Of a stretch of DNA of 44,283 nt, positions 11,940 to 44,283 are shown in pieces (position 1 is the first letter of the stretch; each line of letters begins with the position of its first letter). The DNA is from a virus. The notes beneath the pieces were generated by a model. It saw only the letters and a list, made by a program, of their open reading frames with translations, did not search any database and was not told the origin of the DNA. The translations under genes were made by a program, and so were the position numbers. The stretch is from positions 1 to 44,283 of IMG/VR virus record IMGVR_UViG_3300020477_000050; one strand, given 5' to 3'.

Positions 11940-11949
11940 GGAGATTTCG

Positions 11950-12201
11950 ATGAGTGGCAGGCATAAGCTGCACGATGCGACTGGTGTTCTTCTTGCCGAT
12001 GAGGCTGGGAACAAATTGTTTTGCGTAGAAGATTTTGGCAGTGCTGGCGGTTCTGCGCCCGCTGACGGAAGCATCGGTTACGCCAAGGGTTGCATTATCA
12101 TCAATTCCGGTGCTGCCGATGATGATGACGATGCACACGTTTTCATCAACCTGGGTTCCGCGACTGACAGCAACATCGACGGGCTTAAGGTTCAAACATA
12201 G
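11950..12201 (+). CDS. Unknown small virion-module protein
   Basis: An 83-residue acidic protein with a run of Asp (ADDDDDAHVF, about 56-65) and beta-like segments (ATGVLLADEAGNKLFCVEDF). AAGGAGA lies just before the ATG at a good distance. It resembles small beta-strand virion proteins but no family is recognised. Confidence 0.7.
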   Translation: MSGRHKLHDATGVLLADEAGNKLFCVEDFGSAGGSAPADGSIGYAKGCIIINSGAADDDDDAHVFINLGSATDSNIDGLKVQT

Positions 12202-12213
12202 CAGGGGTTACGA

Positions 12214-13064: not shown

Positions 13065-13085
13065 TGGTGCCAAGAGGGAGCATGG

Positions 13086-18460: not shown

Positions 18461-18546
18461 TGGCGGATATTGGTTATTTTCTTGTGTTTTCAGGCTACGC
18501 CCTCTTCCTCGTTGCCATCCTAAACCTCGTGTCAGACGGGAGATGA
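18460..18546 (+). CDS. 28-residue membrane micro-protein
   Basis: A tiny gene whose ATG overlaps the tail fibre stop (TGATG). The product is MADIGYFLV followed by a hydrophobic stretch (YALFLVAILNLV), forming one transmembrane helix, and ends in SDGR. Its stop overlaps the next micro-gene (ATGA at 18543-18546). The overlaps on both sides and the clean transmembrane profile support it, but length is minimal. A holin-like or envelope-targeting role is possible and unproven. Confidence 0.45.
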   Translation: MADIGYFLVFSGYALFLVAILNLVSDGR

Positions 18547-18644
18547 TCAAATCTGTCATGAACTTTTATCTGCAAAGACAGTGGTCGTCGTTCAATTTCT
18601 TGCGCTGGCCACCATTCTGCTTTCGCAAAAAGAAGGTGTTTTGA
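18543..18644 (+). CDS. 33-residue basic aromatic micro-protein
   Basis: Starts in an ATGA overlap with the preceding micro-gene. It is rich in aromatic residues and arginine/lysine (YLQRQWSSFNFLRWPPF, then RKKKVF at the end). No family is recognised. The in-frame ATG at 18558 is an alternative start. Such short amphipathic peptides could act at membranes. It could also be a chance open frame. Confidence 0.35.
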   Translation: MIKSVMNFYLQRQWSSFNFLRWPPFCFRKKKVF

Positions 18645-18667
18645 GATGAATTGGGAGGACCGTAGCA

Positions 18668-18979
18668 ATGGGTGAAGTTACTCTTAACGCATGGGGCAAG
18701 GTGGCGACGATCACCTATCCAGACGGCATGGATGCACTTGCTCCTCTGGCGTTCGGTGACGCTTATGGATATGAAGAACTGATTCTGGAGGACGGGGATA
18801 ACATTCCCAACCCCCAGTCCCTGGAAGAGTTCGCCATCGAAAAGATATTTGATTACGTTGGCGAAATCATGCGGACGTATTCGACCAAGGATGCCGTGGC
18901 GACAGCGATAGAGGATGCCGAGGCGGCTGCTGATGCCGCTATGGATCTAATCACAGTAGAAATTGCGGATCAGGAGTAA
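18668..18979 (+). CDS. Unknown acidic virion-module protein
   Basis: A 103-residue acidic protein, with a beta-like N-terminal half (VTLNAWGKVATITYPDGMD) and a helical Ala/Glu/Asp-rich C-terminus (AIEDAEAAADAAMDLI). GGGAGG lies about 10 bases before the ATG. It sits between the fibre and internal virion proteins. A fibre-assembly or small structural role is possible. No family is recognised. Confidence 0.7.
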   Translation: MGEVTLNAWGKVATITYPDGMDALAPLAFGDAYGYEELILEDGDNIPNPQSLEEFAIEKIFDYVGEIMRTYSTKDAVATAIEDAEAAADAAMDLITVEIADQE

Positions 18980-18982
18980 GTC

Positions 18983-26000: not shown

Positions 26001-29000
26001 TCGAGAAACTTTACGGGGACCAGTCAAAGTGGGAGCGGAACACAAACCTTGAGGAACGCCTTAGAAAAGGCGGATACCTTGCGAGAGAGTATGCCTCCAC
26101 CCCCGAGGCGGCGGAAGAGGAAGTGGCCCAGGAAGCAAGGCAGGCTTTGGAATCCCTGGGTCATTCCCGGGAGGACGCAGCTGCAAGAGTTTCGGAAGCG
26201 TTGAAGCAGAAGGCATGGCCTTTAGATGTTATTGAATCGCTGTCGGTCGATGCTCTCGTAAGAGCAGCTGTCAACGTAGAACTGCCAACGGACATTAGGG
26301 GTGACGCCATCCTGGCATTGCAGCAGCTAGGGCTTTCCGAGGATGCGGCCACCAAAAAGGTCGACGAGCTTCTCGCGAAGAAAGACTACACGGATGCCGG
26401 GGAACTAGTAAAGGATGCTGTCAGGAGAGATGAGCCAGCCCCGAAACAGTACACCAAGCGTGAGATGGTCTCGGGGAAGAAGGTAAAGATCCTGACGGCA
26501 GATGGAGAAAAGATCGATGGGAGGTATGCCCTGGTCGAGCTTGACGACCTGACTGCCAGTCATCGGGCCACTGAGATTGGTGCTCCATTCACGCCTGAAG
26601 GTAATTACCCGCGATCTCTGCAGCCTCGAAACTACGATTCCCCGGAGGAGAGGAACAAGGTCGATGATTACGCATCGAATCCAGAGGCCGGTTTCCTGAT
26701 CAACGACAACCCAGACGCCACCAGCGGCCCCCCAAGCGTCACTCCTGAAGGCATCGTGATAAACGGGAATGGGCGCACTCTTGTCCTGCAGCTAAGTCAC
26801 GGCGACTGGTACACGGATGCGCTACGGGAGGAGGCGGATCACTACGGGCTGAGCGAGGAGTCGGTAGACAAGTTCGAGATGCCTGTGCTGGTGCGGGTCG
26901 TGGACATGGATCCAGCTGGCCCAGAGGCTAAAGACTTTGCCGAGGTAGGCAACGTCGCGATGACCCAGGCCCAGACTCCACAGCGTATGGCTCAAAGCAT
27001 GTCTAAACTCGTGGGGTTTGACATGGTTCAGAAGCTGGACTTCGCGTCTGGCAAGACGATCGCCGCTTTACTGGATGGGCCCGGGGGCAGAAAGTTTCTG
27101 GACGACGTGTATCACGCACTGCTTCCTCAGGTGCGTGCCCAGTTCATGGACAGCGATCTAGTGCTAACCGATGCCGGGAAAGAGCTTATCAGGGATATGT
27201 TCCTGGCCGCGGCATTTGACATCGAGGTCATTGAGAAGCTGACCTCGAATGCCAAGTACCTGAAGGGGCTATTCGTCAACTCGTTGCCAACGGTTCTCGC
27301 GATAAAGGCGAGCTACCCGGACGCCGACATCTCTTCCGCGTTAGCCGAGGCTGCGATCTTCATCTCTGGGCACAGGCAGCTGAAGACTACAGAACACGTT
27401 AGCGAGTTCCTAGCTTCCGGGACTCTGTTCGAGACGGACCCGAAGGACACGATCTCCCCTCAAGGGAGAATGATGCTGGACCTGCTGCTGGAGATTGGTG
27501 ACAAGCCGAACGTGTTTCGATCTGCCCTGAAATCTCTCCATGCGGAACTGGGCAATGAGCGAGAGGGCCTGTTTATTGACAGGGCCAACCTGAAAAGTGT
27601 GCCGAGAGTGATCTCCGAGACTCTCGGCGCGTTTGCTAAGAATAGGGGAGAGAGTTGGGAGGTGCCGGAAAGGGAGGGTGCCACATTCGGGTCTGCCGAT
27701 TACAAGCCAGCCCGCAGGGAAACCGAGCCAAGCGAAACTCGTGATCCCGATGCGTCGCCCGTGCAGGTCCCTGACCCGAATACAGATGCATTGCGGGAGG
27801 CAGAAGAAAAGGACGAATCCCTGGTTGAGCGTCTTACTGATCACATCAGAACTTATCTGTTCGAGAACCCGGATCTCCAGGGAGCTATCAAAGACAAGTT
27901 TGGCCTGACGGACTGGGACAGCGAAATTGGCAAGATCGACGATGCTGCCACGCTGATCAAGATAGCTCAGGAGATTGTCGTCCAAGGCCCCGCGAAAGCA
28001 CGAGCCTTTTTCGGGGAAGTTCTTCCCGAGGGGGACATGCCTGAGAAGGGTGAGACTGCCGAGGATCTGGACAGCCAGAGCTTCACCGAGGAGGAGCTTG
28101 AGCGGCAGAAAGAGGAACTGATCGTACAGATGCTGGGGATTTACGATCGCATTGACCACATAACCCGTCAGTTAGAAACCGCGGAAGGTGGCGAAGAAGC
28201 AGCCTTGAGGCTGCGGCGAGCAAGGATGAAAGTCTGGAAGAGCGTACTGGAAAGTCGCTGGTGGGATATTGCTCATCGGCAATACAAGACGGGACAAAAA
28301 TTTCTGAGACCAGAGCACGAGGTCGCGTCCAGGCGGAACGAACCGGGGTACAAGTCTCCAGTGGACGTGACCTTGCTGGGTGAGGAAGAGATATCGTTGT
28401 TGGAGTTGAGCGAGTGGGAAAAATCAGACGCGGCAAAATGGGCGACCCGTATTGACGACGGAGAAATGCTGACAGTGCTGCTTGGCCTCGACAAATTCGG
28501 AGTGCAGGATGTCGATATTGTTCCCGTGGACGACGACTCAAACACACATCTCATAGACACATTCGTCGTCGAACTCCCCGAAAACCGACAACAGCAGAGC
28601 GGAATATGGGACGCGATAGAACAGGATGGGGTCTTTTTCGTTTTTGAAGAATCGGACCGACCGACGCTAAAGGATGCACTCTACTTTGCATTCACTGTAG
28701 ATCTGGAAAGTCTCGGATTTATTACAACATCAAAACCATACGAGCAACAGCCATTTAACGCTAATTTGGTGGTACAGGTAATAGATCCTATCAATCAGCA
28801 ACGGGCCGAGGACGCTGCGTTAGACCAAGCCCCAGAACCTGGGGCCGCGACGGCTAACCCACTAGGGTGGCAAGTTGTACAGGTGAATCTGCAGCAAGGA
28901 GTTTTCTGGAATATCGTCAGACAGCACCCCGACAAAAGTTCAATAAGGCTTGTTGAGGGTTTGCCAGAGGAATTACGCAAGGATTTCAAGAAAAAGGCTG

Positions 29001-32000
29001 AGGCAGAGGCGGCACTAGCGGACTTTCTTTCCAAGACAGCAGCCCCCGAGGCGGCGGAAGAGGGTGAAGTGTCAGGCATTGACGAGTCCCCTGCGAGGCC
29101 CGTGGCCCCGCTCCCGTCCGGGGCAGTCCCTGCGCACTTTGGGTTCTGGACATACGAGGACCCCAGGGGCAGCAGCGGTCGTCCGGTTGCGATGTGGCAG
29201 ATAATACGGAGGCTGTCGTTGCTGCCTCGCCTGTTTGGGTACGAGGGTGTCACAGAATTCCCAATCCAGACCGGGGGGCTTAGGTCTCCTACTGCTGTCG
29301 GTGAAGCGTACCATCAGGAATTGATGGTAAAAATCCGTGACGCAGACGACATGCTGACTGCTTTTCACGAGATTGGTCACATCATCGAGGTTCTGATATT
29401 CGGTCACGGGCTGGTGAAAGATCCCGTTACTGGAAAAATCAAACGCACCACTCCATGGAAAACGTCAGCCGTTGGCAAAGCTGTGGTCGACGAGTTGACA
29501 AAACTTGGAGTGGATCTGTGGGGAACCAAGAAGCCAAAGGGTGGTCTGGCACGAGAAGGGTTTGCCGAGTTCATCCGGCTGTACCTGGAGAACCGATCGG
29601 AGGCCCAGTCCAAGGCTCCGAAAACCCTCAGGTGGTTTGAACGCACCGTGACCGGAAGAGCAAAAGGCAAAAAAGCACTACGGGCAATGGACCGTATTGC
29701 CAAGATGGTGACCAGTGCCAGGGAGCAAGGACTCCTGAACTGGGCGAGGGATATAGTCGTGGACCCCGCATCGCTGGAGGAGCGGTTCGAGGAATTCAAG
29801 GACATGATGCGACTGTCCCCAAACGCATTGATCAGAAACATGGTCGAGGCACTTCAGCCGCTTGAGCTACTTGAGCAGCAGTACGAGAAGACCACGGGTA
29901 AACCAATCGCGGATGTCGATAGTGCGTACAAGTGGGGGCAAGCACTTCGACTCCAGCATTCAGCTGTCGTACACCACATGGTCAACGACGGGATGATCAA
30001 TTTCTCTAGAGAAGAGGTCAAGGGCGGGGTCACCCTGAACCAGCTGGAGAAGTTTGTAAAAGCCAAGGACTACAAGGACTTTACCGTTTACCTCGTGGCC
30101 CGCCGCAGCTTGAAGCTGATAAAGAACGAGAAGATCACATGGGACGAAAAAGGGAAAGTCATCAACAGGGAGCCAGCACCGCTTGATACCCCGATGACTG
30201 AGGAGCAGGCTACCAAGATCATCGACATGCTCAACAAGAAGTACCCCAAGTTCGGGGCTGGGGCCGACATATTTTACAAGTGGAACGATGGTGTCCTGCA
30301 GTACGTTGCCGAGGCGGATGAATTCCTGGGTCAGGTGGTTGGTCGGATCAGAAGGAAGGAAAAGGAGCGTGGCGACTACGCACCGTTGCGTCGTTACATG
30401 AGGGCAACCAACTTGGCACTGGCCAGGTATGGTGGCCCGCGGGTTGGATTCATGGACGTGTTCAACGCACTCAAGGGTTCCAAGCGGATGTATGTTGTGG
30501 ACCCAATCCAGACAGCCATATCCAACGCGGAACGGCTTGTGCTCGCTGCACACAACCGCAAGGTTGTCAGCACGATGATCTCCATGGCGGGTGGATTCAG
30601 CGGAACAGCCGGGGAGCCGCTTGGGTTCGGGAACCTGATATTCCAAGAGGTCCGGGACAGGGAACTGAAGCATGCGGCGACTGTTGAGTCGACAGCCAAG
30701 CAGGTGTTTGCTGAACTCAAGAGGATCGGATACACCCCAGATATTGTTGATAGATCCGGGATTCCGGTAGGGATTGACGATGTTGATTGGGACGAGCACT
30801 CGCTGATCGAGTTTTACGGGATGGCCATGACCCCCAAGAGCGGGGAGCCGATCATTCCTGTGAAGGACGCGAAGGGTGCCATACGCTGGTACAAGATGGA
30901 GCCATCGATCTACCAAGCCGTCCAAAGCATGGGCAAGGATGGCATGGAGTTCCTGAGAAAAAACAACTGGGCACGGTGGGCAATCAATGTTGGCGGGTTG
31001 ATGCCACGCCAGACTGCCAGACTGTTCCGCGCTGGAACGGTTGGGTTCCGTGCCTCGTTCGGTCTGGTCACCAATCCGCTGCGAGACTTCCAGACCCTCT
31101 ACCTGAACACATCGACCAGTGCCAACGGTCTCACCCTCTTTTCAAACTTCATGCTTTCGTTTGGCGAGGAATTCTTGTCAGCGATTACTGGTGGCAGATT
31201 CAGATCCAAGTACAGCAAGTTGTGGCTGCGACTTGGTGGCCGCATGGCACTTCCGCTGTCCCAGGACACAAACCTTGTGGCCCAGGCTGCTCGCGATGTT
31301 GTGGAATCCAAAAACATCGGAAGGCGAATTGTCCGTTACGTCACCGACCCAAAGAGAATTCCGCGGCATGCATGGAACGACTGGAACACGTTCCTTTCGT
31401 TCTGGAAAGACTTCCTGCAGTTCCCGGAATCAGCCACCAGAATGGCCGAGATCAGAACTGTGGCCAAGGAGATTGGATGGAGTCCCACTATGCCGGATGG
31501 GAAGGGCGGAACCCAAGCCAGACCCATGTCGGCAGAACAGGCACAAAAGCTGATACTGGCAGGCAAGCAGGTGACGGTCGATTTCACCGCGGCAGGCGAC
31601 GTCGCGCGTTGGGTGAACCAGTTCATTCCATTCTTCAACGCGGCGATACAGGGGCCGCGGGCTGCTATCCGTGCAGCCAGACGACCGGTGCGGAAAGGGA
31701 AGCTGGCGGGAGTCCCCACCGGGCCAGTCCACTTTGCCACTCGCGGCATGCAACTGACCGCACTGGCTATCGCTAACTGGTTCCGTAACAAGGATGAGGA
31801 CTGGTACATCAGGCTGAACGCCCGGGAAAAGTTCCTGTACATGTTCTACCCAACAGAGGTATTTGGCGAGCCTTCTGTGGTGATGATCCCGATGGCTCAC
31901 GATTCGGGGCAGTTGTTTTCCGGTCTTGCCGTGGCGTTTCTTGACGCATGGTATCGCCGTGAGCCAGACGAAGTTTTGAAGTGGGCCGAGCTTCGGGACT

Positions 32001-32938
32001 ATGCGGACACGATGTTTGAAAGCCACATGCCGCTCGACATCCCCTGGGACTTCAAGAAAATGCGACCCGCCCCGACAAACATGCTCGGCAAGTCGTGGCA
32101 AACCATGATGGAATTGATGGCGAATCAAAAGTCATACTTTGAGACGCCAGTCGTCTCCTCGACATTCCGAGGCCCGGGGGGCAGGGATCGCATCCCCAAG
32201 CAGCAGCAGTTCAATGAGTACACAACGGAAGCAGCCAAGTGGCTTGGCAACCTGTCAGGAATGACACCTGTCGAGATAGACCATGCGATAGTCTCGGTGG
32301 CTGGCCCAGCTGCCAGGGACTACCTCCTTGCCGGTCAGTCCCTGGACGGGCTGTTCACCGGTAAGAAGCTGCAATCGCTCAGTGACGTGCCGATTCTTGG
32401 CCGGGTGTTCCGAAAAGGAGGAGAGGCAGGCACGCGAACACGACCCATCAACGAGGTGTACGACCTGTACGAGTACGCTTACACGAGGCATGGCGACAGG
32501 AATAGGCAAGAAACCCCAGAAGAAAACAAGGAGTTCCTGCTGCTCCAGGACGCGACGAAAGCGATCAGCCTCATGTTCCACATACGAACCGTAACGGACA
32601 ATGAGAAGGATCGAAGGGCCATGACCAACAAGGCCTCGGAAATGGCTGAAAGTGCGATCAGGGACATCAACGAGATGCGGCTCGTTAGAGATCCGTATCG
32701 CCTGGAGGCCGCAAGGCTGGAGCAAGAGCGGGACGAGATGCGTATGTTCAAGGCATACGAAGACGGAGACATTGAACTGGCCGAAAGCCTGCGAGAGGAG
32801 TTGCACAAGAACAAGCAGTCGGCACTCCGCAGGGTGATGCAAGGGTTCCCGACCCTGAAAAACCCAACACCAGACGCCCTCGAAAAGGCCATGTGGCAAC
32901 AAAAACGGGCCGGGGCAATCGCCTTCCCCAGAAGGTGA
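23033..32938 (+). CDS. Giant polyvalent virion protein (ParB-like, peptidase, LPD38 domains)
   Basis: A 3301-residue protein, 22% of the window, the third and largest internal protein. In order: an acidic N-terminus; helical internal-virion region (about 150-420) with GIFEEIEEERLV; acidic linkers (about 540-700); probable Cys-His-Asp peptidase (Cys914 or Cys919, GGHDF His952, VDPW Asp964); two short LG-A repeats (ARQALESLGHSREDAAARV and a relative). Next come a DdrB-type ParB-like domain (about 1140-1500, NGNGR at 1244-1248), a metallopeptidase HEIGH (2112-2116) with downstream Glu in GFAEF (2179), and an LPD38-like region (about 2560-2900, FRAGTVGFRASFGLVTNP). This mix matches 'polyvalent proteins' injected with phage DNA to act early in the host. 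GAGG lies 7 bases before the ATG. Confidence 0.88.
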   Translation: MMSPPDWAVQSGFQPQTNPFAEAEETLEEATEQDPWIQDPFAPEAEAVDEPPDLPELGPEDTGPLDWADRSKPLMEDVPGRKELRSTRLFRMLEEDEFNAAVKQNTARARDEELDWFSETGLGGRGQRTLEKLPFSGVITANRLMETALAAHEWQTEGVRTEEGARLIGEYFAELDRQKGLTTFDKVIELAADMPGFFVEIGLTGGGYTYVSRGTQKVLLRTLRKMGAKYLKEGVSKVGKRSLATKLAIKGAGFAAGSGALTLMNPQLIAEQTSERALHHALQGDEEAFVKAMWQGPLGAYFELGSEMSGGMGAKYVTGWLAKKTGIKKMMEAAASKWLIANPRSRLAHFMALKNKVGWHGIFEEIEEERLVDIARGLSKIDDDFGTTGRLFSEDPKERAKAWEQLQVEFYAFTLVGGGMKAPGTIAAFRKAPIEKMENFAKNPSRTAWRKIEGTYRDVTEEEDGTPMATSPLPVIGETYDLPTKDKKTGEVDTENLTPQELDPNEGHHRQWLAENYIGPFAEAQLEGLRQRHKEYFGIEEPTEEPVEGPAVVEDEGVLADVEDVEETDPEMVSDMKQIVAEGGLGEDVAREYPWMADRLNDVIDEVASRKEYTDLEDLKEDVFEELNNIIEAGEQAEPEADPDAEEAAAAEPVEEPVEEEAAEAPVAEDLLQTVFDELDQAFEELTPEQTELFDVEKARDSAKQIAKGIYEEGDFDSLEEFASAVTAALNEATPYDEAATQFYRDLGLPFPGDAAAAAEPAADSEAAAVVRAFEQEFEKELENEETGKVRTKIGKWKAAAAEQLIEKLGRWINEPGRQLRETGINYWALFTEAAERVFNEKKRSPAKAAELVKRAWDNAEKRAGEAETAPEAAAATRESLEEQFGNRDEEFWGIERGEDGSSFGEVEFSGVVCTGYACMVAKKFGVDRVKQFGFDDAAGTGGLIEGDVGGHDFAVVDDRFIVDPWLPEFSNLSDQTVFDMQDPADALLIEKLYGDQSKWERNTNLEERLRKGGYLAREYASTPEAAEEEVAQEARQALESLGHSREDAAARVSEALKQKAWPLDVIESLSVDALVRAAVNVELPTDIRGDAILALQQLGLSEDAATKKVDELLAKKDYTDAGELVKDAVRRDEPAPKQYTKREMVSGKKVKILTADGEKIDGRYALVELDDLTASHRATEIGAPFTPEGNYPRSLQPRNYDSPEERNKVDDYASNPEAGFLINDNPDATSGPPSVTPEGIVINGNGRTLVLQLSHGDWYTDALREEADHYGLSEESVDKFEMPVLVRVVDMDPAGPEAKDFAEVGNVAMTQAQTPQRMAQSMSKLVGFDMVQKLDFASGKTIAALLDGPGGRKFLDDVYHALLPQVRAQFMDSDLVLTDAGKELIRDMFLAAAFDIEVIEKLTSNAKYLKGLFVNSLPTVLAIKASYPDADISSALAEAAIFISGHRQLKTTEHVSEFLASGTLFETDPKDTISPQGRMMLDLLLEIGDKPNVFRSALKSLHAELGNEREGLFIDRANLKSVPRVISETLGAFAKNRGESWEVPEREGATFGSADYKPARRETEPSETRDPDASPVQVPDPNTDALREAEEKDESLVERLTDHIRTYLFENPDLQGAIKDKFGLTDWDSEIGKIDDAATLIKIAQEIVVQGPAKARAFFGEVLPEGDMPEKGETAEDLDSQSFTEEELERQKEELIVQMLGIYDRIDHITRQLETAEGGEEAALRLRRARMKVWKSVLESRWWDIAHRQYKTGQKFLRPEHEVASRRNEPGYKSPVDVTLLGEEEISLLELSEWEKSDAAKWATRIDDGEMLTVLLGLDKFGVQDVDIVPVDDDSNTHLIDTFVVELPENRQQQSGIWDAIEQDGVFFVFEESDRPTLKDALYFAFTVDLESLGFITTSKPYEQQPFNANLVVQVIDPINQQRAEDAALDQAPEPGAATANPLGWQVVQVNLQQGVFWNIVRQHPDKSSIRLVEGLPEELRKDFKKKAEAEAALADFLSKTAAPEAAEEGEVSGIDESPARPVAPLPSGAVPAHFGFWTYEDPRGSSGRPVAMWQIIRRLSLLPRLFGYEGVTEFPIQTGGLRSPTAVGEAYHQELMVKIRDADDMLTAFHEIGHIIEVLIFGHGLVKDPVTGKIKRTTPWKTSAVGKAVVDELTKLGVDLWGTKKPKGGLAREGFAEFIRLYLENRSEAQSKAPKTLRWFERTVTGRAKGKKALRAMDRIAKMVTSAREQGLLNWARDIVVDPASLEERFEEFKDMMRLSPNALIRNMVEALQPLELLEQQYEKTTGKPIADVDSAYKWGQALRLQHSAVVHHMVNDGMINFSREEVKGGVTLNQLEKFVKAKDYKDFTVYLVARRSLKLIKNEKITWDEKGKVINREPAPLDTPMTEEQATKIIDMLNKKYPKFGAGADIFYKWNDGVLQYVAEADEFLGQVVGRIRRKEKERGDYAPLRRYMRATNLALARYGGPRVGFMDVFNALKGSKRMYVVDPIQTAISNAERLVLAAHNRKVVSTMISMAGGFSGTAGEPLGFGNLIFQEVRDRELKHAATVESTAKQVFAELKRIGYTPDIVDRSGIPVGIDDVDWDEHSLIEFYGMAMTPKSGEPIIPVKDAKGAIRWYKMEPSIYQAVQSMGKDGMEFLRKNNWARWAINVGGLMPRQTARLFRAGTVGFRASFGLVTNPLRDFQTLYLNTSTSANGLTLFSNFMLSFGEEFLSAITGGRFRSKYSKLWLRLGGRMALPLSQDTNLVAQAARDVVESKNIGRRIVRYVTDPKRIPRHAWNDWNTFLSFWKDFLQFPESATRMAEIRTVAKEIGWSPTMPDGKGGTQARPMSAEQAQKLILAGKQVTVDFTAAGDVARWVNQFIPFFNAAIQGPRAAIRAARRPVRKGKLAGVPTGPVHFATRGMQLTALAIANWFRNKDEDWYIRLNAREKFLYMFYPTEVFGEPSVVMIPMAHDSGQLFSGLAVAFLDAWYRREPDEVLKWAELRDYADTMFESHMPLDIPWDFKKMRPAPTNMLGKSWQTMMELMANQKSYFETPVVSSTFRGPGGRDRIPKQQQFNEYTTEAAKWLGNLSGMTPVEIDHAIVSVAGPAARDYLLAGQSLDGLFTGKKLQSLSDVPILGRVFRKGGEAGTRTRPINEVYDLYEYAYTRHGDRNRQETPEENKEFLLLQDATKAISLMFHIRTVTDNEKDRRAMTNKASEMAESAIRDINEMRLVRDPYRLEAARLEQERDEMRMFKAYEDGDIELAESLREELHKNKQSALRRVMQGFPTLKNPTPDALEKAMWQQKRAGAIAFPRR
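26100..26120 (+). repeat. 21-bp direct repeat, copy at domain junction 1
   Basis: Identical over 21 bases to 29043-29063. The 15-base core CCCCCGAGGCGGCGG is also found at 25641-25655. All copies encode the linker PEAA(E/A) in the same frame and sit at edges between domains of the giant protein. Confidence 0.85.
29043..29063 (+). repeat. 21-bp direct repeat, copy at domain junction 2
   Basis: Exact copy of 26100-26120. It encodes APEAAEE just before the metallopeptidase region of the giant protein. The DNA just upstream (28681-28800) is only 38% GC by direct count, far below flanking parts of the same gene. Confidence 0.85.
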
Positions 32939-32960: not shown

Positions 32961-33051
32961 TTGCTTATATAGTGGGGCAACCACGCGCAGGCACTACATT
33001 TTGTGGGTTGCTGTGCGCGGCACTGACGCTATAGTGGTGCTGCAACCCACA
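32959..33051 (+). promoter_or_regulatory. Tandem-dyad promoter/operator region before csrA
   Basis: Two related units. Unit 1 is GGTTGC (32959-32964), then TATAGT (32968-32973), then GCAACC (32977-32982). Unit 2 is TGTGGGTTGC (33002-33011), then TATAGT (33030-33035), then GCAACCCACA (33042-33051), a perfect 10-bp inverted repeat. In unit 2, TTGCTG (33008-33013) stands 16 bases before TATAGT, forming a plausible sigma70-type promoter inside the dyad, with a start near 33042. A short related sequence (GCGC-GGCACT) also recurs in both units, suggesting duplication. A repressor or the phage's own regulators could bind the arms. Confidence 0.65.
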
Positions 33052-33069
33052 GTTACCAAGGAGAAGGCA

Positions 33070-33243
33070 ATGCTGGTGTTGAGCAGGAGGCGAGGTGAGT
33101 CGATAGAACTAGAGGGGGGTATTACGGTCACCGTCCTGGAGTTGACTGGCAACTTTGTTCGGATAGGGGTGGATGCCCCGGACGACGTGAAGATCCTTCG
33201 GAGTGAGTTGGTCGGACAGGAGAAGGTCGATGAAGTTGTATGA
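33070..33243 (+). CDS. csrA: Carbon storage regulator CsrA (phage-encoded)
   Basis: A 57-residue protein with the CsrA fold signature: MLVLSRRRGE (1-10), ITVTVLELTGNFVRIGVDAP (18-37), DDVKILRSEL (38-47). CsrA dimers bind GGA in RNA hairpin loops, often over SD sites, and repress or stabilise mRNA. The RNA-contacting arginines in the first strand (LSRR) and near residue 44 (ILR) are present, so it is probably active. AAGGAG (33058-33063) is correctly placed for ATG 33070. It is the first gene of the early/middle module and overlaps the next gene by 14 bases. It may redirect host or phage mRNA translation. Confidence 0.95.
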   Translation: MLVLSRRRGESIELEGGITVTVLELTGNFVRIGVDAPDDVKILRSELVGQEKVDEVV

Positions 33244-33754: not shown

Positions 33755-34576
33755 ATGCCGACTGACGTGTGGGAGAGTCTGCAGGCCCCGTTTGCACCGC
33801 AGGAGGTGGAGTGGAGGATCGGTCGCAGCGGGTGTAAGAAGGACGGGAACGTCTGGGCACTGTGTCTGGCGTATGTGACGAACCGAGCGATCCAGCAGAG
33901 GCTGGATGATGTCCTGGGGCCTGATTACTGGAGTAACGAGTACAAGGCTGGCCCCGCTGGTGGAGTGGTCTGTGGCCTGTCAATCCGGTGCGCTCATGAA
34001 GACGTGCATGGAAATTGGAAGGATGAGTGGGTCACCAAGTGGGACGGTGCAGAAGCCCGTGATATCGAGGCTGTAAAGTCTGCATTGTCCGACTCCATGA
34101 AGCGAGCAGCCTGCCAGTGGGGGATCGGTCGATACCTTTACGATCTTGAAGAGGGGTGGGCTGAGGTGAGCGACAACAAGATGCCCGGGGCCAAGCGGGC
34201 AAAGTGCCAGGGCCCCGGTGGAGACAAGTGGTTCTTTTGGCTTCCTCCGAAGCTGCCGCATTGGGCTTTGCCTAATAACACTAGCCCTAGTGGCTCCCCT
34301 GCCCGGGAAGTGGCAAAGCAGTCGGCAGTGGAGGAGGAGCCTCGACCAGTGGACAAGCTCAACTCAGTGCTTATGGAGGCTGGGTGCAAGGGTCCAGATG
34401 AGGCAAACAAGGTGGTTGAGTGGTTGTGGGATGGGACAAAGTCGTCCATTGGTGAGATCCGGGACTCGGATGCACTGGTTGACGCAACTCTTGAACTGGT
34501 ACAGGTTAACGTGAAAAAGGGCATCCCGATTGGCGAGATGCTCGTGGCAGCATTGGAGGAGGGTGAAGAGATATGA
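33755..34576 (+). CDS. Rad52-like single-strand DNA annealing protein
   Basis: A 273-residue protein. Residues 1-131 match the Rad52/Rad22 annealing core: VEWRIGRSG (about 18-26), LAYVTNRAIQQRLDDVLGPD (about 38-57), KWDGAEARDIEAVKSALSDS (about 95-114) and RAACQWGIGRYLYDL (117-131). These rings anneal complementary single strands in phage recombination and replication. A flexible Pro/Ser-rich middle leads to a helical C-terminus (about 205-273) that may bind partners such as SSB. GGAAAGGGAAG precedes the ATG. It is coupled to the next gene by ATGA. Confidence 0.93.
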   Translation: MPTDVWESLQAPFAPQEVEWRIGRSGCKKDGNVWALCLAYVTNRAIQQRLDDVLGPDYWSNEYKAGPAGGVVCGLSIRCAHEDVHGNWKDEWVTKWDGAEARDIEAVKSALSDSMKRAACQWGIGRYLYDLEEGWAEVSDNKMPGAKRAKCQGPGGDKWFFWLPPKLPHWALPNNTSPSGSPAREVAKQSAVEEEPRPVDKLNSVLMEAGCKGPDEANKVVEWLWDGTKSSIGEIRDSDALVDATLELVQVNVKKGIPIGEMLVAALEEGEEI

Positions 34577-35184
34577 GAACGACGGACGAATATGTGAAGA
34601 TGTTGACTGAAAAGAACTACAACAGCCAGGGGGTTGAGGAGCCTGCGGAAAAGGAGGAGCCTCCAGAAAAGGAGGAGAACAGGGCGATGCACGTCCTGAC
34701 GCTGGATGATCTTCGCCTGGACAAGAGGTCAAAGAAAGCCTGCTGGTCGCTTGGGATTCACAGTGTTGCCCAGCTGTGCAGCACGACTCCGAGTCAGCTG
34801 CAGCGGGTGGATGGAGTAGGGCGTTACACGGTGAGGCAAATAGTCAGGGCTTTGGCTGGCCATGCCTTGGAGTTGGCGCATGACCCGTCGTACAACTCCA
34901 TGAAAAAGCCAACACCCGCAAAGGAGCGGGGGTCTGCAGGCTGGACGGAAGAACGACGCAAGGCTCAGTCCAGGCGTGCGATCCAGATGAACAAGGAGAG
35001 GAGGGAGCACGCCAAGGCAGAGATAATGGAGCAGGCTGGGGACAACTTTGTGGAGGCTATGGAAATGGCCATCGCCACTGGGGCGATTCCTGCGGCAAGA
35101 AGTCTTCTGGACTGCTGCACCCCCTTGATGGCCAAGAAGATTATCGATCTGGTATCAGCAATTGAAAAAGGGTGGCTAGCATGA
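34573..35184 (+). CDS. Protein with RNA polymerase alpha-CTD-like domain
   Basis: A 203-residue protein. After an acidic leader containing EEPAEK-EEPPEK (two 18-base tandem repeats at 34636-34671), residues about 42-102 align by eye with the C-terminal domain of bacterial RNA polymerase alpha: LTLDDLRLDKRS, then GIHSVAQL, LQRVDGVGRYTVRQIVRAL and HALEL. Arg52-Ser53 correspond to the E. coli alpha Arg265-Ser266 that contact UP-element DNA, and the VGRYT turn to NLGKKS. The rest is a basic linker and a helical C-terminus. It could mimic alpha-CTD at promoters or just be a helix-hairpin-helix DNA-binding protein. It is coupled to its neighbours on both sides by ATGA. Confidence 0.8.
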   Translation: MRTTDEYVKMLTEKNYNSQGVEEPAEKEEPPEKEENRAMHVLTLDDLRLDKRSKKACWSLGIHSVAQLCSTTPSQLQRVDGVGRYTVRQIVRALAGHALELAHDPSYNSMKKPTPAKERGSAGWTEERRKAQSRRAIQMNKERREHAKAEIMEQAGDNFVEAMEMAIATGAIPAARSLLDCCTPLMAKKIIDLVSAIEKGWLA

Positions 35185-39025: not shown

Positions 39026-39359
39026 CCCGCATGACTGGTCGGATTCGGAAATACAGGCGATCGTCTCGGAACTGCAGCACGGGGGTGGTGGAAAGATCAA
39101 GGACTACCACTACCTCCAGAAGTGGCTCCTCAAAGCCCTGTCGATCGAGTGGCAGAGTCCCGAGAAGCCAGTCCCGGCCATCATCGAGAAGCTCAAGAGG
39201 AATGCGTGCAAGTACCGAGTGATTACCCAGCTGAAGCGGCTGTCCGAGATGGGCAACTTCGGACTGGACATGGACCTGGATAAGTTCTTCACCTGCGTGA
39301 GCAGGGCTTACGAGGAAGCGATCCCGGAAATCGAGAAACTGCTAAAGGAGAAGGCATGA
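38946..39359 (+). CDS. Unknown protein, possible replication role
   Basis: A 137-residue mostly helical protein (MMSPSVALELVALGVMLGSK; HYLQKWLLKALSIEWQS; a charged end EIEKLLKEKA). GAGGAG at 38937-38942 fits the ATG pair at 38946/38949. The N-terminal ALELVALGVMLGSKQW with PHDW and EIQAIV loosely recalls the N-terminal domain of DnaB-type helicases, but the match is too weak to name. It overlaps the HTH gene by 80 bases and the methyltransferase by ATGA. Confidence 0.65.
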   Translation: MMSPSVALELVALGVMLGSKQWRNKVDPHDWSDSEIQAIVSELQHGGGGKIKDYHYLQKWLLKALSIEWQSPEKPVPAIIEKLKRNACKYRVITQLKRLSEMGNFGLDMDLDKFFTCVSRAYEEAIPEIEKLLKEKA

Positions 39360-40240
39360 ACAAGGAAAAGCTGAGGGAAGTGGCCACCTACTACGAGGAC
39401 GTGTGGCTGTCGAGGCTGGAGAACGGGGCATCAGACGGGTGCGTCCACTACGGGCTGCGTATAGACGGGATGAGCACCAAGCCCAAGATTAATACCAACC
39501 GGCTCATCGAGAACACCCTGGTCAGGGAAATGACTCCTCGGTCGATCGAGAAAGGTTGGAACGTGTTGGATCTGGGATGCGGGATTGGCGGCACCCTGAA
39601 ACACCTGTGGTCTAAACAAAAGCGTGCTTGGCGATTGGCAGGTGTCTGCTCAAGTCCCAAGGAGGAACGCATCGCAGCAATGAGTCTTCCCACTTGGGTC
39701 GACGTGGTGCCGTTAGACTACCACGACCTGTCGTTTACCGAGTTTTTTTACGATCTCCACGGGGTCTACGCGGTCGAGAGCCTGTGTCAGTCATGGGATC
39801 GGCCCCGAGTGCTGGCCAACGTATGGCACGCACTGGCTCCTGGCGGCGTGTTCCTTGTGCTGGATGCCATGCTGGATGGTGACCCGCCGGACGATTACGG
39901 GCCGGGGCCTGTGATGGAGAAGACGCTCAAGGACCTGTACGATGACGTGCGTGCTGGGTTCCATGTACCGGACCTGTACGAGGCTCCGCTGATGACTGAA
40001 CTGGTCAACGCGGGATTCGAGGTGGAGCAGGAGCTTGACTTCACCCCCAACGTGGCCGAGTCGATCTTTGACTCAGCTGGCAGGGCCATCTACCGTGACG
40101 GGACCAATGCGATCCCGTTGAGGAAGCAGCTGCACGGGCTGGCCTGTGTGGGGATGGCCGCGCTGCTCGCGGCTAAGAAATTGCGATACACCCTGACCAT
40201 TGCAAGGAAACCGATCGATGCCGATACCGAAACCAAGTAG
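39356..40240 (+). CDS. SAM-dependent methyltransferase (sterol/tocopherol-type)
   Basis: A 294-residue class I methyltransferase. Motif I is LDLGCGIGG (71-79). GVCSSPKEERIA (about 96-107) occupies the place of the Gly-x-(N/S)xSxxQ strand of cyclopropane/sterol methyltransferases. YAVESLCQSWDRPRVLANVW (138-157) and LAPGGVFLVLD (160-170) match the 'iEs-cH--d---v--e--r-LkPGG' block of Erg6/gamma-tocopherol-type enzymes. The early YYEDVWLSRLENG and HYGLRIDGM also fit that family. Family members methylate lipids, quinones or small metabolites, not usually DNA. That is unusual for a phage early operon. ATGA coupling upstream. Confidence 0.85.
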   Translation: MNKEKLREVATYYEDVWLSRLENGASDGCVHYGLRIDGMSTKPKINTNRLIENTLVREMTPRSIEKGWNVLDLGCGIGGTLKHLWSKQKRAWRLAGVCSSPKEERIAAMSLPTWVDVVPLDYHDLSFTEFFYDLHGVYAVESLCQSWDRPRVLANVWHALAPGGVFLVLDAMLDGDPPDDYGPGPVMEKTLKDLYDDVRAGFHVPDLYEAPLMTELVNAGFEVEQELDFTPNVAESIFDSAGRAIYRDGTNAIPLRKQLHGLACVGMAALLAAKKLRYTLTIARKPIDADTETK

Positions 40241-40394
40241 CGACGACAGGGACTACCCGCATGACGGCGGCTATCTTGAGGAGGATTACCGCATGGATCA
40301 GCTGAGGTTTGCTGAGGCTCCAGTTGAGCCTACTCCCAAGCGGAGCAAGCCGTTCATGGATGACACTCCGGAGCCAGAGGGGGCACCCGAGTGA
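40218..40394 (+). CDS. Unknown acidic, Pro-rich protein
   Basis: A 58-residue acidic protein (MPIPKPSSDDRDYPHDGGYL, ending EPEGAPE), probably disordered. Start at ATG 40218 with AAGGAAA upstream, within the 3' end of the methyltransferase gene. Its stop overlaps the RusA GTG start (GTGA at 40391-40394). No family is recognised. Coupling on its 3' side supports it as a gene. Confidence 0.6.
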   Translation: MPIPKPSSDDRDYPHDGGYLEEDYRMDQLRFAEAPVEPTPKRSKPFMDDTPEPEGAPE

Positions 40395-40795
40395 CTGCTC
40401 AGATAACCGTCGTTTGTCCCCTCCCTCCGAGGCAGCTGAGTCCTAATTCACGCTGTCACTGGCGCACCCGTCATAAGCACTCCAAGAAGTACCGCGAAGC
40501 GTGTCGGGTGGCTTGTTTCACTGAGCTAGTGAGTCGGAGGCGAGGGGATATTGACTGGTCGAATGCCCGGCTACAGGCGACATTCTTCTATAAGGACAAG
40601 CGTCGTCGCGATCGGGACAACATGGCCGCGATGCTGAAATATGCGTATGATGGAATCGCAGCGGCCCTGGGCGTTGATGACTATGGATTCCGGCCCCAGA
40701 TGCCCGAGGTCACTGTTGATAGGGACGATCCCCGAGTGGAGATTGTCGTGGTGGGTGACCCACCCGGGGATCCGTCCCCGGAAAGTCATCCATGA
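40391..40795 (+). CDS. rusA: RusA-like Holliday junction resolvase
   Basis: A 134-residue protein with the RusA layout: an N-terminal PLPPRQLSPNSRCHWRTRHK (10-29), basic Lys/Arg cluster, then FFYKDKRRRDRDNMAAMLK (65-83) with acidic Asp74 and Asp76, and YDGIAAALGVDDYGF (86-100) with Asp87 and Asp96/97 as metal ligands. It cuts four-way junctions made during recombination or before packaging. GTG start in a GTGA overlap. It fits with the Rad52-like protein and helicase in the same operon. All expected acidic residues are present. Confidence 0.93.
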   Translation: MTAQITVVCPLPPRQLSPNSRCHWRTRHKHSKKYREACRVACFTELVSRRRGDIDWSNARLQATFFYKDKRRRDRDNMAAMLKYAYDGIAAALGVDDYGFRPQMPEVTVDRDDPRVEIVVVGDPPGDPSPESHP

Positions 40796-40833: not shown

Positions 40834-41034
40834 GTGGATATCAATGGAAATCACCCTTTCTGGGGCATTATTCGGCTGGTTGTGATGTTTGCTGGCTTGA
40901 CGACGTTCCTGTATCTGAACTCTACCAACTTCGACAAGGGCGAAGTTTTGACGATCGTGGAATTGTTGATCCTGGCGTGCGGATTTGAGGCTGGTCGTAA
41001 AGTCTTTCAGTCCGCATCCAAGAAAAAGGAGTAG
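40834..41034 (+). CDS. Small two-helix membrane protein (holin candidate)
   Basis: A 66-residue product with two hydrophobic segments (WGIIRLVVMFAGLTTFLYL, about 9-27, and VLTIVELLILACGF, about 37-50) and a basic tail (ASKKKE). Start chosen at GTG 40834 because a perfect AAGGAGG (40821-40827) stands 6 bases before it. The frame is open to ATG 40792, which overlaps the rusA stop (ATGA) and would add 14 residues (basic N-terminus). Two transmembrane helices with a short loop fit small holins. Its place directly before the exported protease adds weak support. Confidence 0.7.
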   Translation: MDINGNHPFWGIIRLVVMFAGLTTFLYLNSTNFDKGEVLTIVELLILACGFEAGRKVFQSASKKKE

Positions 41035-41039: not shown

Positions 41040-41888
41040 ATGCGGCTCATGGTGTCTGCGCTGGCTCTGATCTTGTGCTCAGCTGTGCCCTCCCAAAGCC
41101 TCCCCCGGGGTGCGGTTGACGTTGGTGGATGCAGTGGTACGCTCGTCCACCGGGACCTCACGTCCACATTCGGAGTCAGCGCAGCCCACTGTGCCGGTGC
41201 TATCGGTGACGTCGTTTACATCGTTCTGCAGGATGGACGCAGGGTCAGGGGTTCCTGGGTGGCTCTCGATAAAGAGGCCGACCTTGCACTGTTCAAGATC
41301 CCCAGCAGCGGCCAATCGTTGGCCGTTGTGCCAGAAAAATCGCCACCTAGTGGTGTAATTACCGCGTATGGCAGGCATGGCCACAAGCATCTGAAAGCCA
41401 TGGGGGCCCAGGAAATCACCGACTCATCGAATAAGCGTCTGCTTATGCGTCGTGGTTACAAGGTGGTCGGTGGTAAATATCGCAATGGCGATTCCGGGGC
41501 GGGGGTGTATGCTGGTGGGGTACTGGTGGGGGTTGCCAGTCACGGTAAGGATGACAAAGAACTGTTTGCTGCCAGCCACACGCAGCTGGTTGCTTTCCTG
41601 AAGGAGTACAAGGCGTTTGGCCCCCGTGTGGAGGGGGCAGACTGGGGTGACAAGGACAGGACCCGTGAGATCCTGGAATTGAAACGCAGGTTGAAAGAAT
41701 TAGAGTCGATCAAACCGGTTACTGGGCCACCCGGGCCTGCTGGCCCGGCTGGTCGTGATGGAATAGATGGCGAGCCAGGGACGGCAGTGGATGTATCCGG
41801 TCTCTCGTCGAGGTTGGAGTCGTTGGAAAAGTGGCGCAGCAATTTCCGAACGACAATCCGAATTAGACTGCGTCCGGTGAAGGAGTAG
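41040..41888 (+). CDS. Exported trypsin-like serine protease with collagen-like tail
   Basis: A 282-residue protein with a Sec signal peptide (MRLMVSALALILCSAVPSQS, cut near 20-22). The trypsin-fold triad is complete: VSAAHC (His50), EADLALFKI (Asp81) and NGDSGAGVY (Ser152). Cys31 and Cys51 may pair. A charged helical segment (about 205-225) leads to six Gly-X-Y triplets (GPPGPAGPAGRDGIDGEPG, 229-247) that can form a collagen-like triple helix, then a short coiled-coil and basic end. So it is probably a secreted trimeric protease acting in periplasm or at the surface. Such a combination is unusual in phages. AAGGAG and the stop of the membrane protein gene precede it. Confidence 0.9.
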   Translation: MRLMVSALALILCSAVPSQSLPRGAVDVGGCSGTLVHRDLTSTFGVSAAHCAGAIGDVVYIVLQDGRRVRGSWVALDKEADLALFKIPSSGQSLAVVPEKSPPSGVITAYGRHGHKHLKAMGAQEITDSSNKRLLMRRGYKVVGGKYRNGDSGAGVYAGGVLVGVASHGKDDKELFAASHTQLVAFLKEYKAFGPRVEGADWGDKDRTREILELKRRLKELESIKPVTGPPGPAGPAGRDGIDGEPGTAVDVSGLSSRLESLEKWRSNFRTTIRIRLRPVKE

Positions 41889-41892: not shown

Positions 41893-42096
41893 ATGGCAAG
41901 TGCAGTGGATCTTCAGAGCCTGTTGGAAGCGGCGGCTGGTGAGCGAATCGGTCGGGCGAGTGATGCCTCTCAGACCACGCTGGTGCTGATCGACCGGGTT
42001 TTTACCAAGAACCTCTCCGAGCCTGACGTGATGGAATCGGCGGCTGCTCGGCAGCTTCTGATGCGTGAGGCACCCATCAACTCGTCAGGCTCCTGA
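41893..42096 (+). CDS. Unknown small protein
   Basis: A 67-residue helical protein (AVDLQSLLEAAAGERIGRAS; AAARQLLMREAP). AAGGAG lies 8 bases before the ATG, and its stop overlaps the next start (TGATG). No family is recognised. It is probably co-translated with the protease and the following small genes. Confidence 0.7.
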   Translation: MASAVDLQSLLEAAAGERIGRASDASQTTLVLIDRVFTKNLSEPDVMESAAARQLLMREAPINSSGS

Positions 42097-42311
42097 TGCT
42101 GACAACCCCTGATCAGCGTGCGGAGGCGGCTCGTCTGGTCGACCTGGACGAGCGCGGCTTGCTTCTTGAGGCGGTCGCGCTCGCCCTGCGGCTGGGTGAA
42201 ACGCAGGAAAGGGCAATGCAGGAACTGGTGGCTCTCGACCGGGAGTTCATCAAGGAGATCAGTGATGGAGAGTCCAGCTGGGGAAGTCTACCGTTCGAAG
42301 GCGAAGAATAA
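42096..42311 (+). CDS. Unknown small helical protein
   Basis: A 71-residue acidic helical protein (RAEAARLVDLDERGLLLEAV; ERAMQELVALDREFIKEI). It starts in a one-base overlap with the previous stop. Its C-terminal codons overlap the start of the next gene by 47 bases. No family is recognised. Confidence 0.7.
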   Translation: MLTTPDQRAEAARLVDLDERGLLLEAVALALRLGETQERAMQELVALDREFIKEISDGESSWGSLPFEGEE

Positions 42312-42681
42312 GGGCTTGGTAGCCAACATCTGGGCGCATGATATTGCGCAGCGACTCAAGATCAGGAGGAAGATAATGGCTAAGGACGCGGGGCTGGGTG
42401 AACTGGACGTCGGGACCTATCCCAGCAATGGAGCGGTTAACCTGGTCGACAACGGTGGATTCTGGAAGGGCATTGCGATGGCCGGGCTGGCGGCTGGTGG
42501 TCTTGGTGCCGTCAGCGGTCTGTTTCAGTTGAAACCAGAGACCCCGTTGGTGGTTGATCCTGCTCCCCCGGTGGTGGCTCCAGCGGAATCAGTCTCCCAG
42601 GAGTGGGAGCTAGAGATAATTAGCGTGGACGGCAAACCGGTTGTGAAAGGAATCACCCGTGGCAAAGGTAAGGCCCCATAG
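42265..42681 (+). CDS. Single-span membrane protein with two SD-start pairs
   Basis: Two starts have good SD sites in one frame. ATG 42265 (AAGGAG upstream) gives 138 residues with a basic leader. ATG 42376 (AGGAGG upstream, seven-base gap) gives 101 residues. Both contain a Gly/Ala transmembrane stretch (GIAMAGLAAGGLGAVSGLF), then a Pro/Val-rich part (VVDPAPPVVAPAE) and a small C-terminal beta segment. It may be inserted in the inner membrane with the C-terminus outside. The short and long forms differ only in the basic N-terminus, like dual-start holin pairs, though this is speculative. The next gene starts within its 3' end. Confidence 0.65.
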   Translation: MESPAGEVYRSKAKNKGLVANIWAHDIAQRLKIRRKIMAKDAGLGELDVGTYPSNGAVNLVDNGGFWKGIAMAGLAAGGLGAVSGLFQLKPETPLVVDPAPPVVAPAESVSQEWELEIISVDGKPVVKGITRGKGKAP

Positions 42682-43036
42682 GTTTGGCTACCGTGCGATC
42701 ATCCTCCCCGAGGATGTCTACGATGGCGACAGCGCGACGGCGACGGTTTCGCTCGGATTTGGCGTGTACCTGCACCGACAAAAGCTGAGGTTGTTGGGGG
42801 TTGATACTCCTGAGATCAGAGGTGCCACCAGGGCAGCTGGTCGTGCCGCAAGGGACTTTGTGAGGGAGATGCTGCCCGAGGACGGCGAGGTGCTTCTGAA
42901 GACCCATAAGGGCCGCAAGAAAGGCAAGTGGGGCAGGTGGCTCTGCGAGTTGTGGCTGGAAAAAAACCCTCAGCAATTCGTCTGCGTTAACGACGAATTG
43001 CTGAGGGCTGGGCACGCTACCCGCTACACGGGCTAG
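42659..43036 (+). CDS. Staphylococcal-nuclease-like (thermonuclease) protein
   Basis: A 125-residue SNase-fold enzyme. VYDGDSATATV (20-30) and LRLLGVDTPEIRG (43-55) carry the calcium- and phosphate-binding residues: Asp22, Arg44, Asp49, Glu52 equivalent to nuclease Asp21, Arg35, Asp40, Glu43. Arg93 in KWGRWLC is in the Arg87 place. The C-terminal CVNDELLRAGHATRY (108-122) is the usual last helix. No signal peptide is present, so it acts in the cytoplasm, perhaps degrading host DNA or processing DNA. GTG start with AAGGA upstream. Its 3' end holds the leftward terminator and overlaps the convergent gene by 4 bases (CTAG). Confidence 0.9.
   Translation: MAKVRPHRFGYRAIILPEDVYDGDSATATVSLGFGVYLHRQKLRLLGVDTPEIRGATRAAGRAARDFVREMLPEDGEVLLKTHKGRKKGKWGRWLCELWLEKNPQQFVCVNDELLRAGHATRYTG
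42961..43007 (-). terminator. Leftward intrinsic terminator inside nuclease gene
   Basis: On the minus strand, a perfect 16-bp stem (arms 42992-43007 and 42967-42982, CCCTCAGCAATTCGTC and its complement) with a 9-base loop is followed by TTTTTT (42966-42961). This is a strong terminator for the leftward module, located within the coding 3' end of the rightward nuclease gene. On the plus strand there is no U run after the stem. Confidence 0.92.
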
Positions 43037-43200
43037 TCTTCGTCCTCCCCGTCATTTAGACACTCGGCACACAGCCATTCCCCAGTGGGGTCTTTTGACC
43101 ACTGCTCCTGTCCCTCTGGCATATCGGCTGGGACACGGTTGACGTATCTGCCGCTGCCCCACTCCACGCTGTGGCCGCACTCGTAACAGTTCTCGCTCAT
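43033..43200 (-). CDS. Small zinc-ribbon protein
   Basis: A 55-residue protein: NCYECGHSVEWGSGRY at the start and EWLCAECLNDGEDED at the end, giving CxxC (5-8) and CxxC (44-47) for one zinc. Start ATG overlaps the stop of the upstream gene, and a strong AAAGGAGGG lies just before it. It converges with and overlaps the nuclease gene by 4 bases. Its role is unknown. It is the last gene of the leftward unit and ends just before the terminator. Confidence 0.85.
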   Translation of the reverse strand: MSENCYECGHSVEWGSGRYVNRVPADMPEGQEQWSKDPTGEWLCAECLNDGEDED

Positions 43201-43604
43201 CACTTCCCTCCTTTCGGGTCCTGGAAGTCAGTCCACTCCACGAGACTCTGGTACTCTTTTGTCAATCCGATCATCGCAAAATACTCGGCGCGGTATGTGT
43301 CGATGAATCGTGTGTTGAAGCCTGCAGTGATCTTGTCCTCTTCACAGCTGATGAAACACACTTCGTCCCATCCGTAGGCAAGTCCCTCCCGCTCTACAAA
43401 CCACGTCGTGCTGAAACTGTTTCTGCCGCTGCTGCTTTCAGCGGACCAGTTCTGGCATCTTCCTGGGGCGATGTTGCCAATCTCGACAAGCATCCGCAGG
43501 AAGTCGGCAGGGACGAGTAGTTTTTCAATCTCTTGCGTGGTTGTTGGTTGTTGGTGGTTGCTGTCGCAAATGTTGTCTGCAATTGTCCATGCTGGTTCAC
43601 TCAT
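43200..43604 (-). CDS. Unknown protein of leftward module
   Basis: A 134-residue protein (MSEPAWTIADNICDSN at the start, SLVEWTDFQDPKGGK at the end) with several Trp/Tyr and Cys residues and a central segment with YGWDEVCFISC. No family is recognised. Start set at ATG 43604, preceded by AAAGGGA. An open frame continues upstream through a terminator hairpin and is probably not coding. A run of CAA/ACC codons (about residues 16-23) is a low-complexity patch. Confidence 0.75.
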   Translation of the reverse strand: MSEPAWTIADNICDSNHQQPTTTQEIEKLLVPADFLRMLVEIGNIAPGRCQNWSAESSSGRNSFSTTWFVEREGLAYGWDEVCFISCEEDKITAGFNTRFIDTYRAEYFAMIGLTKEYQSLVEWTDFQDPKGGK

Positions 43605-43624
43605 TGCCTTTGTCCCTTTTGGTG

Positions 43625-43660
43625 AAAAAAAGAGGGGCTGGCAACGATTGCCAACCCCTC
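43625..43660 (-). terminator. Leftward intrinsic terminator/attenuator
   Basis: On the minus strand GAGGGGTTGGCAA and TTGCCAGCCCCTC form a 13-bp stem with one T-G wobble and a TCG loop (43632-43660), followed by seven T (43631-43625). It lies 8 bases after the upstream gene's stop and about 20 bases before the next ATG, so it works between two genes of one unit. Confidence 0.92.
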
Positions 43661-43668
43661 GTGACGTG

Positions 43669-43929
43669 TCAGATAACCGAGATGTCAAATGCTCGGTCCG
43701 CTACCTCCCCGGTGATTCTGTGAAGGTCCTTCCACCACTCCCCGTGCTGCTTTAGTGCAACATTGAACTCCTCAACCGTGTTGTAGTCACGTGGGTGAGG
43801 TGTCGCGTCCTTCAACGCCTGTAAGGCTTCTTCCAGGCGACCAGCGAAAATGACCAAGTCGTCGACAAGGTTCTGCTGGCCACTCCCGTGGAGAGTGATA
43901 GCGGGGAGTGGTACTTGGGTAGTCGTCAT
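43669..43929 (-). CDS. Unknown small protein of leftward module
   Basis: An 86-residue mostly helical protein (NLVDDLVIFAGRLEEALQAL; EFNVALKQHGEWWKDLHRIT). GAGGGAGA lies about 8 bases before ATG 43929. It ends at a terminator hairpin. No family is recognised. It lies directly after the DUF932-like gene with a 15-base gap. Confidence 0.78.
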   Translation of the reverse strand: MTTTQVPLPAITLHGSGQQNLVDDLVIFAGRLEEALQALKDATPHPRDYNTVEEFNVALKQHGEWWKDLHRITGEVADRAFDISVI

Positions 43930-43944
43930 CGATTCTATCTCCCT

Positions 43945-44283
43945 CTAGGATTTGATTCCGCACAACTTGTGAAACACCCCGTGGAGTGCCTGCGAACGCT
44001 TCATCACGGTTGGCAGTGGGTCCGACTTGTAGATCTCGGTGAACGCATTCCACAGCGACCACGCGGTTCCAGCCCCGTGCTTCTCGCGGTGCGTCTCCGA
44101 TTGGTATTCCGCGAGCACCTTTGGGATCGCGGCATTGGGGATAGCCTTGGCCACCATTGCCTCGACCAGCGTATCGTTGATATTCACGCGATTGACGGTG
44201 GTGTACTCCATCGCGCGGAATGCCATTTCCTGGCGGCGGCTGTTGGCCAGCAGTCGACCAACGGCCCGGTTAATGACGTGCGG
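43945..44283 (-). CDS. DUF932-like protein, C-terminal part
   Basis: The frame is open from the right edge of the window, so the gene's start lies outside. The visible 112 residues begin PHVINRAVGRLLANSRR and include EYTTVNRVNINDTLVEAMVA and TAWSLWNAFTEIYKSD. Gly-rich 'GAGTAWSLWNAFTE' matches the C-terminal conserved block of DUF932 proteins, found on phages and plasmids with unknown function. An internal ATG at 44226 exists but the upstream frame fits the family, so the real start is beyond the window. Confidence 0.8.
   Translation of the reverse strand, partial: PHVINRAVGRLLANSRRQEMAFRAMEYTTVNRVNINDTLVEAMVAKAIPNAAIPKVLAEYQSETHREKHGAGTAWSLWNAFTEIYKSDPLPTVMKRSQALHGVFHKLCGIKS

Follow-up and report, generated by a model that had tools for sequence, protein, structure and literature searches.

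A phage-encoded, predicted Sec-exported trypsin-fold protease with a collagen-like stalk in a conserved gene cassette

The phage sequence examined here (the 'window', all 44,283 nt of IMG/VR record IMGVR_UViG_3300020477_000050) carries at 41040..41888 (+ strand) a 282-residue open reading frame in which a trypsin-like serine protease domain is joined to a coiled coil and a short collagen-like stretch, behind a Sec-type signal segment. We hypothesize that the product (hereafter PROT) is an exported, probably trimeric envelope protease that acts late in infection, probably as a lysis or release factor, and we put the probability of this reading at roughly 0.45. Membership of a conserved gene set that often lies beside predicted membrane or cell-envelope enzymes suggests that PROT helps to dismantle the host envelope, possibly in lysis.

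A conserved trypsin-fold protease

The gene starts at an ATG with a Shine-Dalgarno sequence (AAGGAG) upstream, and its product is laid out as a signal segment (residues ~1-20), a trypsin-like domain (~25-195), a coiled coil (204-222), a collagen-like segment (229-247) and a C-terminus of coil plus basic strand (255-282) that is kept in relatives. Residues 31-165 match Pfam Trypsin_2 (PF13365; E 6.6e-7, 30.6 bits against a cut-off of 27.6), a family that scores 40-51 bits in the relatives from loci L045, L051 and L053 and falls under the cut-off in L033; PROT also matches PHROG 9683 'protease' (E 9.7e-8). The catalytic triad is His50 (in SAAHC), Asp81 (DLALF) and Ser152 (NGDSGAG), and the domain carries a cysteine pair, C31/C51. 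An AlphaFold2 model returned a beta-rich protease domain with pLDDT mostly 80-92 and helices at 204-222 and 255-276, the stalk being poorly modelled at low confidence; in a Foldseek comparison with the PDB the best matches were MamO, Rv3671c and DegS (E 1e-8 to 1e-7).

Scans of IMG/VR recovered relatives in ~35 records, ranging from 97% to ~30% identity, and tblastn with the window and L067 proteins found none in the cultured-phage collection. Terminase and helicase matches to cultured phages show <60% identity and are spread over many hosts. A cellular origin for PROT was considered and rejected, two pattern scans of GTDB genome contigs having returned no relative. An uncharacterised viral protein of 302 aa in BFVD (A0A516LES5) is 40% identical over 291 alignment columns, so that a full-length relative is already present in UniProt. 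The first-pass annotation of this DNA had described trypsin-like proteases with Sec signals as uncommon in phages; their rarity was overstated, since other phages also encode proteases of the trypsin type (PHROG 9683 and further BFVD matches).

Residues H50, D81, G150, S152 and G153 are invariant in all 28 aligned relatives, down to ~30% identity, with Asp, Ser or Asn at position 151. The cysteine pair is gone in the L050/L051/L088 group, and C31 is gone in L034 as well. In pairs from the window's clade the protease domain has a dN/dS of 0.05-0.11 (Nei-Gojobori; pair L050/L088 is left out, its start lying one codon out of register), and close pairs are thus under strong purifying selection. 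Given the invariant triad together with these ratios, catalysis appears to be selected, a pattern that shows, at the level of sequence conservation, that the enzyme function matters to the phage. Of the 28 relatives, 25 have Lys or Arg at residue 146, six before Ser152, and R137 and H168 are invariant; because of these residues, placed by sequence offsets only, PROT could conceivably prefer acidic or polar P1 residues, which we offer with low confidence.

Signal segment and collagen-like stalk

The predicted signal peptide (41040..41099, + strand; MRLMVSALALILCSAVPSQS) ranks highest in hydropathy among the ~39 gene starts of the window that were scored, and a hydrophobic N-terminal segment is present in every relative with a complete N-terminus. 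Homologues lacking the triad or the signal, which the first-pass annotation had named as counter-evidence, were thus not encountered among the relatives aligned or read. We considered and rejected the possibility that PROT is a lipoprotein or o-spanin, as the N-termini read contain no lipobox (in PROT itself Leu, rather than Gly, Ala or Ser, precedes Cys13). From the signal segment we infer that PROT is located outside the cytoplasm: it would be synthesised in the cytoplasm of the host, leave it through Sec, and work as a serine protease of trypsin fold in the periplasm or on the cell surface.

Downstream of the protease domain, a coiled-coil segment at 41643..41708 (+ strand) bears the motif WGDKDRTREI and coincides with a helix in the AlphaFold2 model; the form WGDxDRTREI is found in 27/27 relatives that reach this position (W202, D204 and R207 checked). 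It is followed at 41724..41780 (+ strand) by GPPGPAGPAGRDGIDGEP, six uninterrupted Gly-X-Y triplets and then a G. The Pfam Collagen match to residues 229-247 is weak (E 0.013, under the cut-off), and at least six triplets arose in 3 of 20,000 shuffles of the PROT sequence; the stronger argument for the stretch is its conservation in relatives, where the number of triplets runs from 3 (L088) to 12 (L034 and L050). Two similar proteases, L050:535-1584 and L051:3390-4385, have 12 and 6 triplets respectively, from which it follows that the stalk is retained but changes rapidly in length. Other enzyme heads on the same stalk were also sought and the idea was dropped, since in the new loci that were read from a stalk-only scan the stalk was again joined to this protease. 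With both a coiled coil and a collagen-like segment present, PROT is probably a trimer, which these two elements would hold together. The first-pass annotation's triad, coiled coil and six Gly-X-Y triplets are borne out by the Trypsin_2 match, the structure model and conservation, and hydropathy agrees with its signal peptide; the combination it proposed, of a predicted export signal, a protease and a collagen-like stalk, is supported and is conserved in relatives.

Such a stalk is also what one might expect of a tail-associated protease that cuts surface proteins at entry, phage collagen-like segments being found mostly in tail fibres (PHROG matches; PMC3368898), and in L067, L069 and L072 the PROT cassette lies upstream of tail-fibre-like genes. 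However, the conserved Sec-type N-terminus and the disulfide-type cysteine pair are ill-suited to tail assembly in the cytoplasm, and in the window PROT lies outside the tail gene module and far from it (9402-23025), tail fibres adjoining PROT in some relatives only. The signal peptide in particular makes a purely virion protein less likely, and we regard a fibre-like virion role as decidedly improbable.

The cassette, its context and a role in lysis

In the window the cassette consists of a two-TM protein of 66 aa (TM66), PROT, two small proteins and a one-TM protein of 138 aa, and this order is retained in phages whose flanking genes differ. TM66 (40834..41034, + strand) has a GTG start after the Shine-Dalgarno sequence aaggagg; we take this to be the true start because the site is conserved and relatives have ATG there, and a longer open reading frame from 40792 was rejected, its extension not being conserved. 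TM66 has no Pfam, PHROG or NCBIfam match, and it resembles a holin by size and topology only. PROT is directly 3' of TM66 in the loci read out from a TM66 scan, as it is in L087 and L090. On the other side of PROT, a 67-aa soluble protein (41893..42096, + strand) is always the next gene in PROT's clade, followed by a 71-aa soluble protein (42096..42311, + strand) and, as the last member, the conserved TM138 (42265..42681, + strand), which is Gly-rich, with a single TM segment, a Pro/Ala linker and a small C-terminal domain (EWELEIISVDGKP).

The upstream neighbour is a RusA-like resolvase (40391..40795, + strand; PHROG 34, E 3.3e-13) and the 3' neighbour a SNase-like nuclease (42659..43036, + strand; Pfam SNase E 1.2e-6, PHROG 452 E 2.3e-21) that is probably outside the PROT system. 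A conserved class I methyltransferase at 39356-40240 (Methyltransf_11 E 5.5e-8; PHROG 4752 'tRNA methyltransferase') also lies next to the cassette and is shared by most near relatives, and in the L050/L051/L088 group a DNA methylase-like gene (L088:6441-7727, recognised by reading from its TSPPYWGLRDYG motif) lies close upstream of the protease. Elsewhere the window encodes a polyvalent protein of 3301 aa with ddrB-ParB, LPD38 and RuvA_C domains (23033-32938), a multi-domain protein that is probably injected or internal; a CsrA-like protein, so called by reading, with homologues in related loci (33001-33243); and a protein of 203 aa whose domain is RNA polymerase alpha C-terminal-like/helix-hairpin-helix, perhaps a modifier of host transcription (34573-35184).

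Since the window's cassette comes after RusA and the DNA-metabolism genes, PROT may have an earlier role, cleaving a receptor or layer at the surface, or a defence protein in the periplasm, so as to block superinfection or aid spread, with no part in lysis. The Sec signal, protease and stalk fit such a role equally well, and the surface could be where the stalk is anchored or what it extends through. The 'early/middle' label given to this module by the first-pass annotation is only a position, namely that of the gene, and simple receptor cleavage needs neither a two-TM partner nor TM138; the company of PROT in relatives, which includes a C92 hydrolase, tail-fibre genes and a protein weakly matching a holin family, also argues against this explanation, and we think it unlikely.

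This company is best seen in distant relatives. In L067, a one-TM coiled-coil protein with a weak holin match (PHROG 1350, E 0.0064) is followed by a C92 permuted papain-like hydrolase, PROT with its cassette and then a tail-fibre-like gene; L069 has the same order plus a two-TM protein between C92 and PROT. L045 and L060 share another arrangement, in which a tail fibre, a glycosyltransferase and a one-TM protein, in this order, precede PROT and the rest of the cassette, and C92 and then SNase come after it. The L045 tail-fibre-like protein (140-3520, 1126 aa), just upstream of the C92/protease cassette, contains very long collagen-like GPQG repeats. C92 was detected by Pfam search in L045 and L060, and C92-like proteins by profile and motif in L053, L067, L069, L072 and L075; in the L067 group the call draws on an hhalign probability of 90, shared motifs and PHROG 1128, the C92 structure model reaching a pLDDT of only 40. 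C92 is annotated among the tail genes of Bacillus phage Izhevsk (PMC7685451), so that its presence beside PROT does not prove lysis, and our confidence in a lysis role is for this reason no higher.

Conserved partners next to PROT might alternatively be its substrates, PROT processing or activating an exported phage protein such as TM138 or C92 and so regulating lysis rather than effecting it. A family search found no C92 in the window phage, yet PROT is under strong purifying selection, and there is no known cleavage site; we give this explanation very little weight.

Searches for five endolysin families (Phage_lysozyme, Amidase_2, SLT, M15_4 and M23), each with positive controls in reference genomes, gave 0/14 records per family (the window and 13 related records, all classed as linear and possibly fragments), for which reason these phages probably break the envelope by some other means. 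Most genes of the window were also scanned against Pfam, which likewise detected no classical endolysin, and no spanin was recognised in the window. It is possible that a divergent or new endolysin was missed by such family searches. One related locus, L080, bridges the right end of the window to its left end across ~3.7 kb; two of the bridge genes were scanned and belong to the DUF932 and GP88 types, and inspection of the others by eye revealed no recognisable endolysin. The opposite-strand module at the right end of the window (43033-44226, - strand) is extended in related loci by DUF932 and GP88 genes, beyond which the terminase is reached again, which suggests that the window phage has a closed genome of ~48 kb.

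Three functions had been put forward in the first-pass annotation, namely help in lysis, alteration of receptors against superinfection, and action on surface protein layers; of these, lysis or envelope breakdown has the most support from context, owing to the two-TM partner, the C92 and weak holin match in relatives, and the lack of a detected classical endolysin. In the late-acting lysis or release reading that we prefer, PROT together with TM66, TM138 and the two small proteins would dismantle the envelope late in infection, in relatives with a C92 papain-like hydrolase within or adjoining the cassette, and its likely targets would be proteins that join the wall and the outer layer. It is tempting to go further and suppose that PROT, as a trimeric serine protease exported by Sec and set on a collagen stalk, is central to lysis or envelope disruption in these phages, replacing or working beside the classical endolysin and spanin, and hence that it represents an undescribed proteolytic lysis system; we consider this larger claim doubtful.

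Comparison with known systems

PROT shares its fold, the H-D-S order and the G[DSN]SG motif with PA-clan Trypsin_2 (PF13365) proteases, including PHROG 9683, and differs from them in its additional coiled coil, its collagen-like stalk and its conserved C-terminal part; the match to PHROG 9683 covers the protease domain only. The best fold and profile matches of that domain are to periplasmic proteases of the HtrA/DegS/DegP type. Membership of the HtrA/Deg family was nonetheless rejected: neither Pfam nor NCBIfam detects a PDZ domain, the C-terminus consists of coil and collagen instead, and the NCBIfam score is 17.7 bits against a cut-off of 423. Phage collagen-like tail-fibre proteins, such as EPclA of an E. 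coli O157 prophage, resemble PROT in having short Gly-X-Y stretches beside coiled coils, and EPclA was shown to be a trimer (PMC3368898). Unlike such fibres, PROT is predicted to be exported, is fused to an enzyme and lies outside the tail module in the window; it would be a naturally occurring enzyme on a collagen stalk, and a simply built one.

Current understanding of phage lysis is built almost entirely on the holin, the peptidoglycan hydrolase and the spanin, and to our knowledge a serine protease is not a standard part of phage lysis modules. We found neither a trypsin-collagen phage protein nor a protease lysis cassette in the open-access literature; the individual domains of PROT are known, and we could not find their fusion, or its cassette context, described. 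Like holin-endolysin-spanin modules, the cassette pairs a small two-TM protein with an exported enzyme (TM66 and PROT), with an envelope hydrolase nearby in relatives; in contrast to them, neither an endolysin nor a spanin is recognised in the window. If phages without recognisable classical endolysins keep an exported protease, this would point to another route by which host cells are opened, and would give that route a named, testable cassette.
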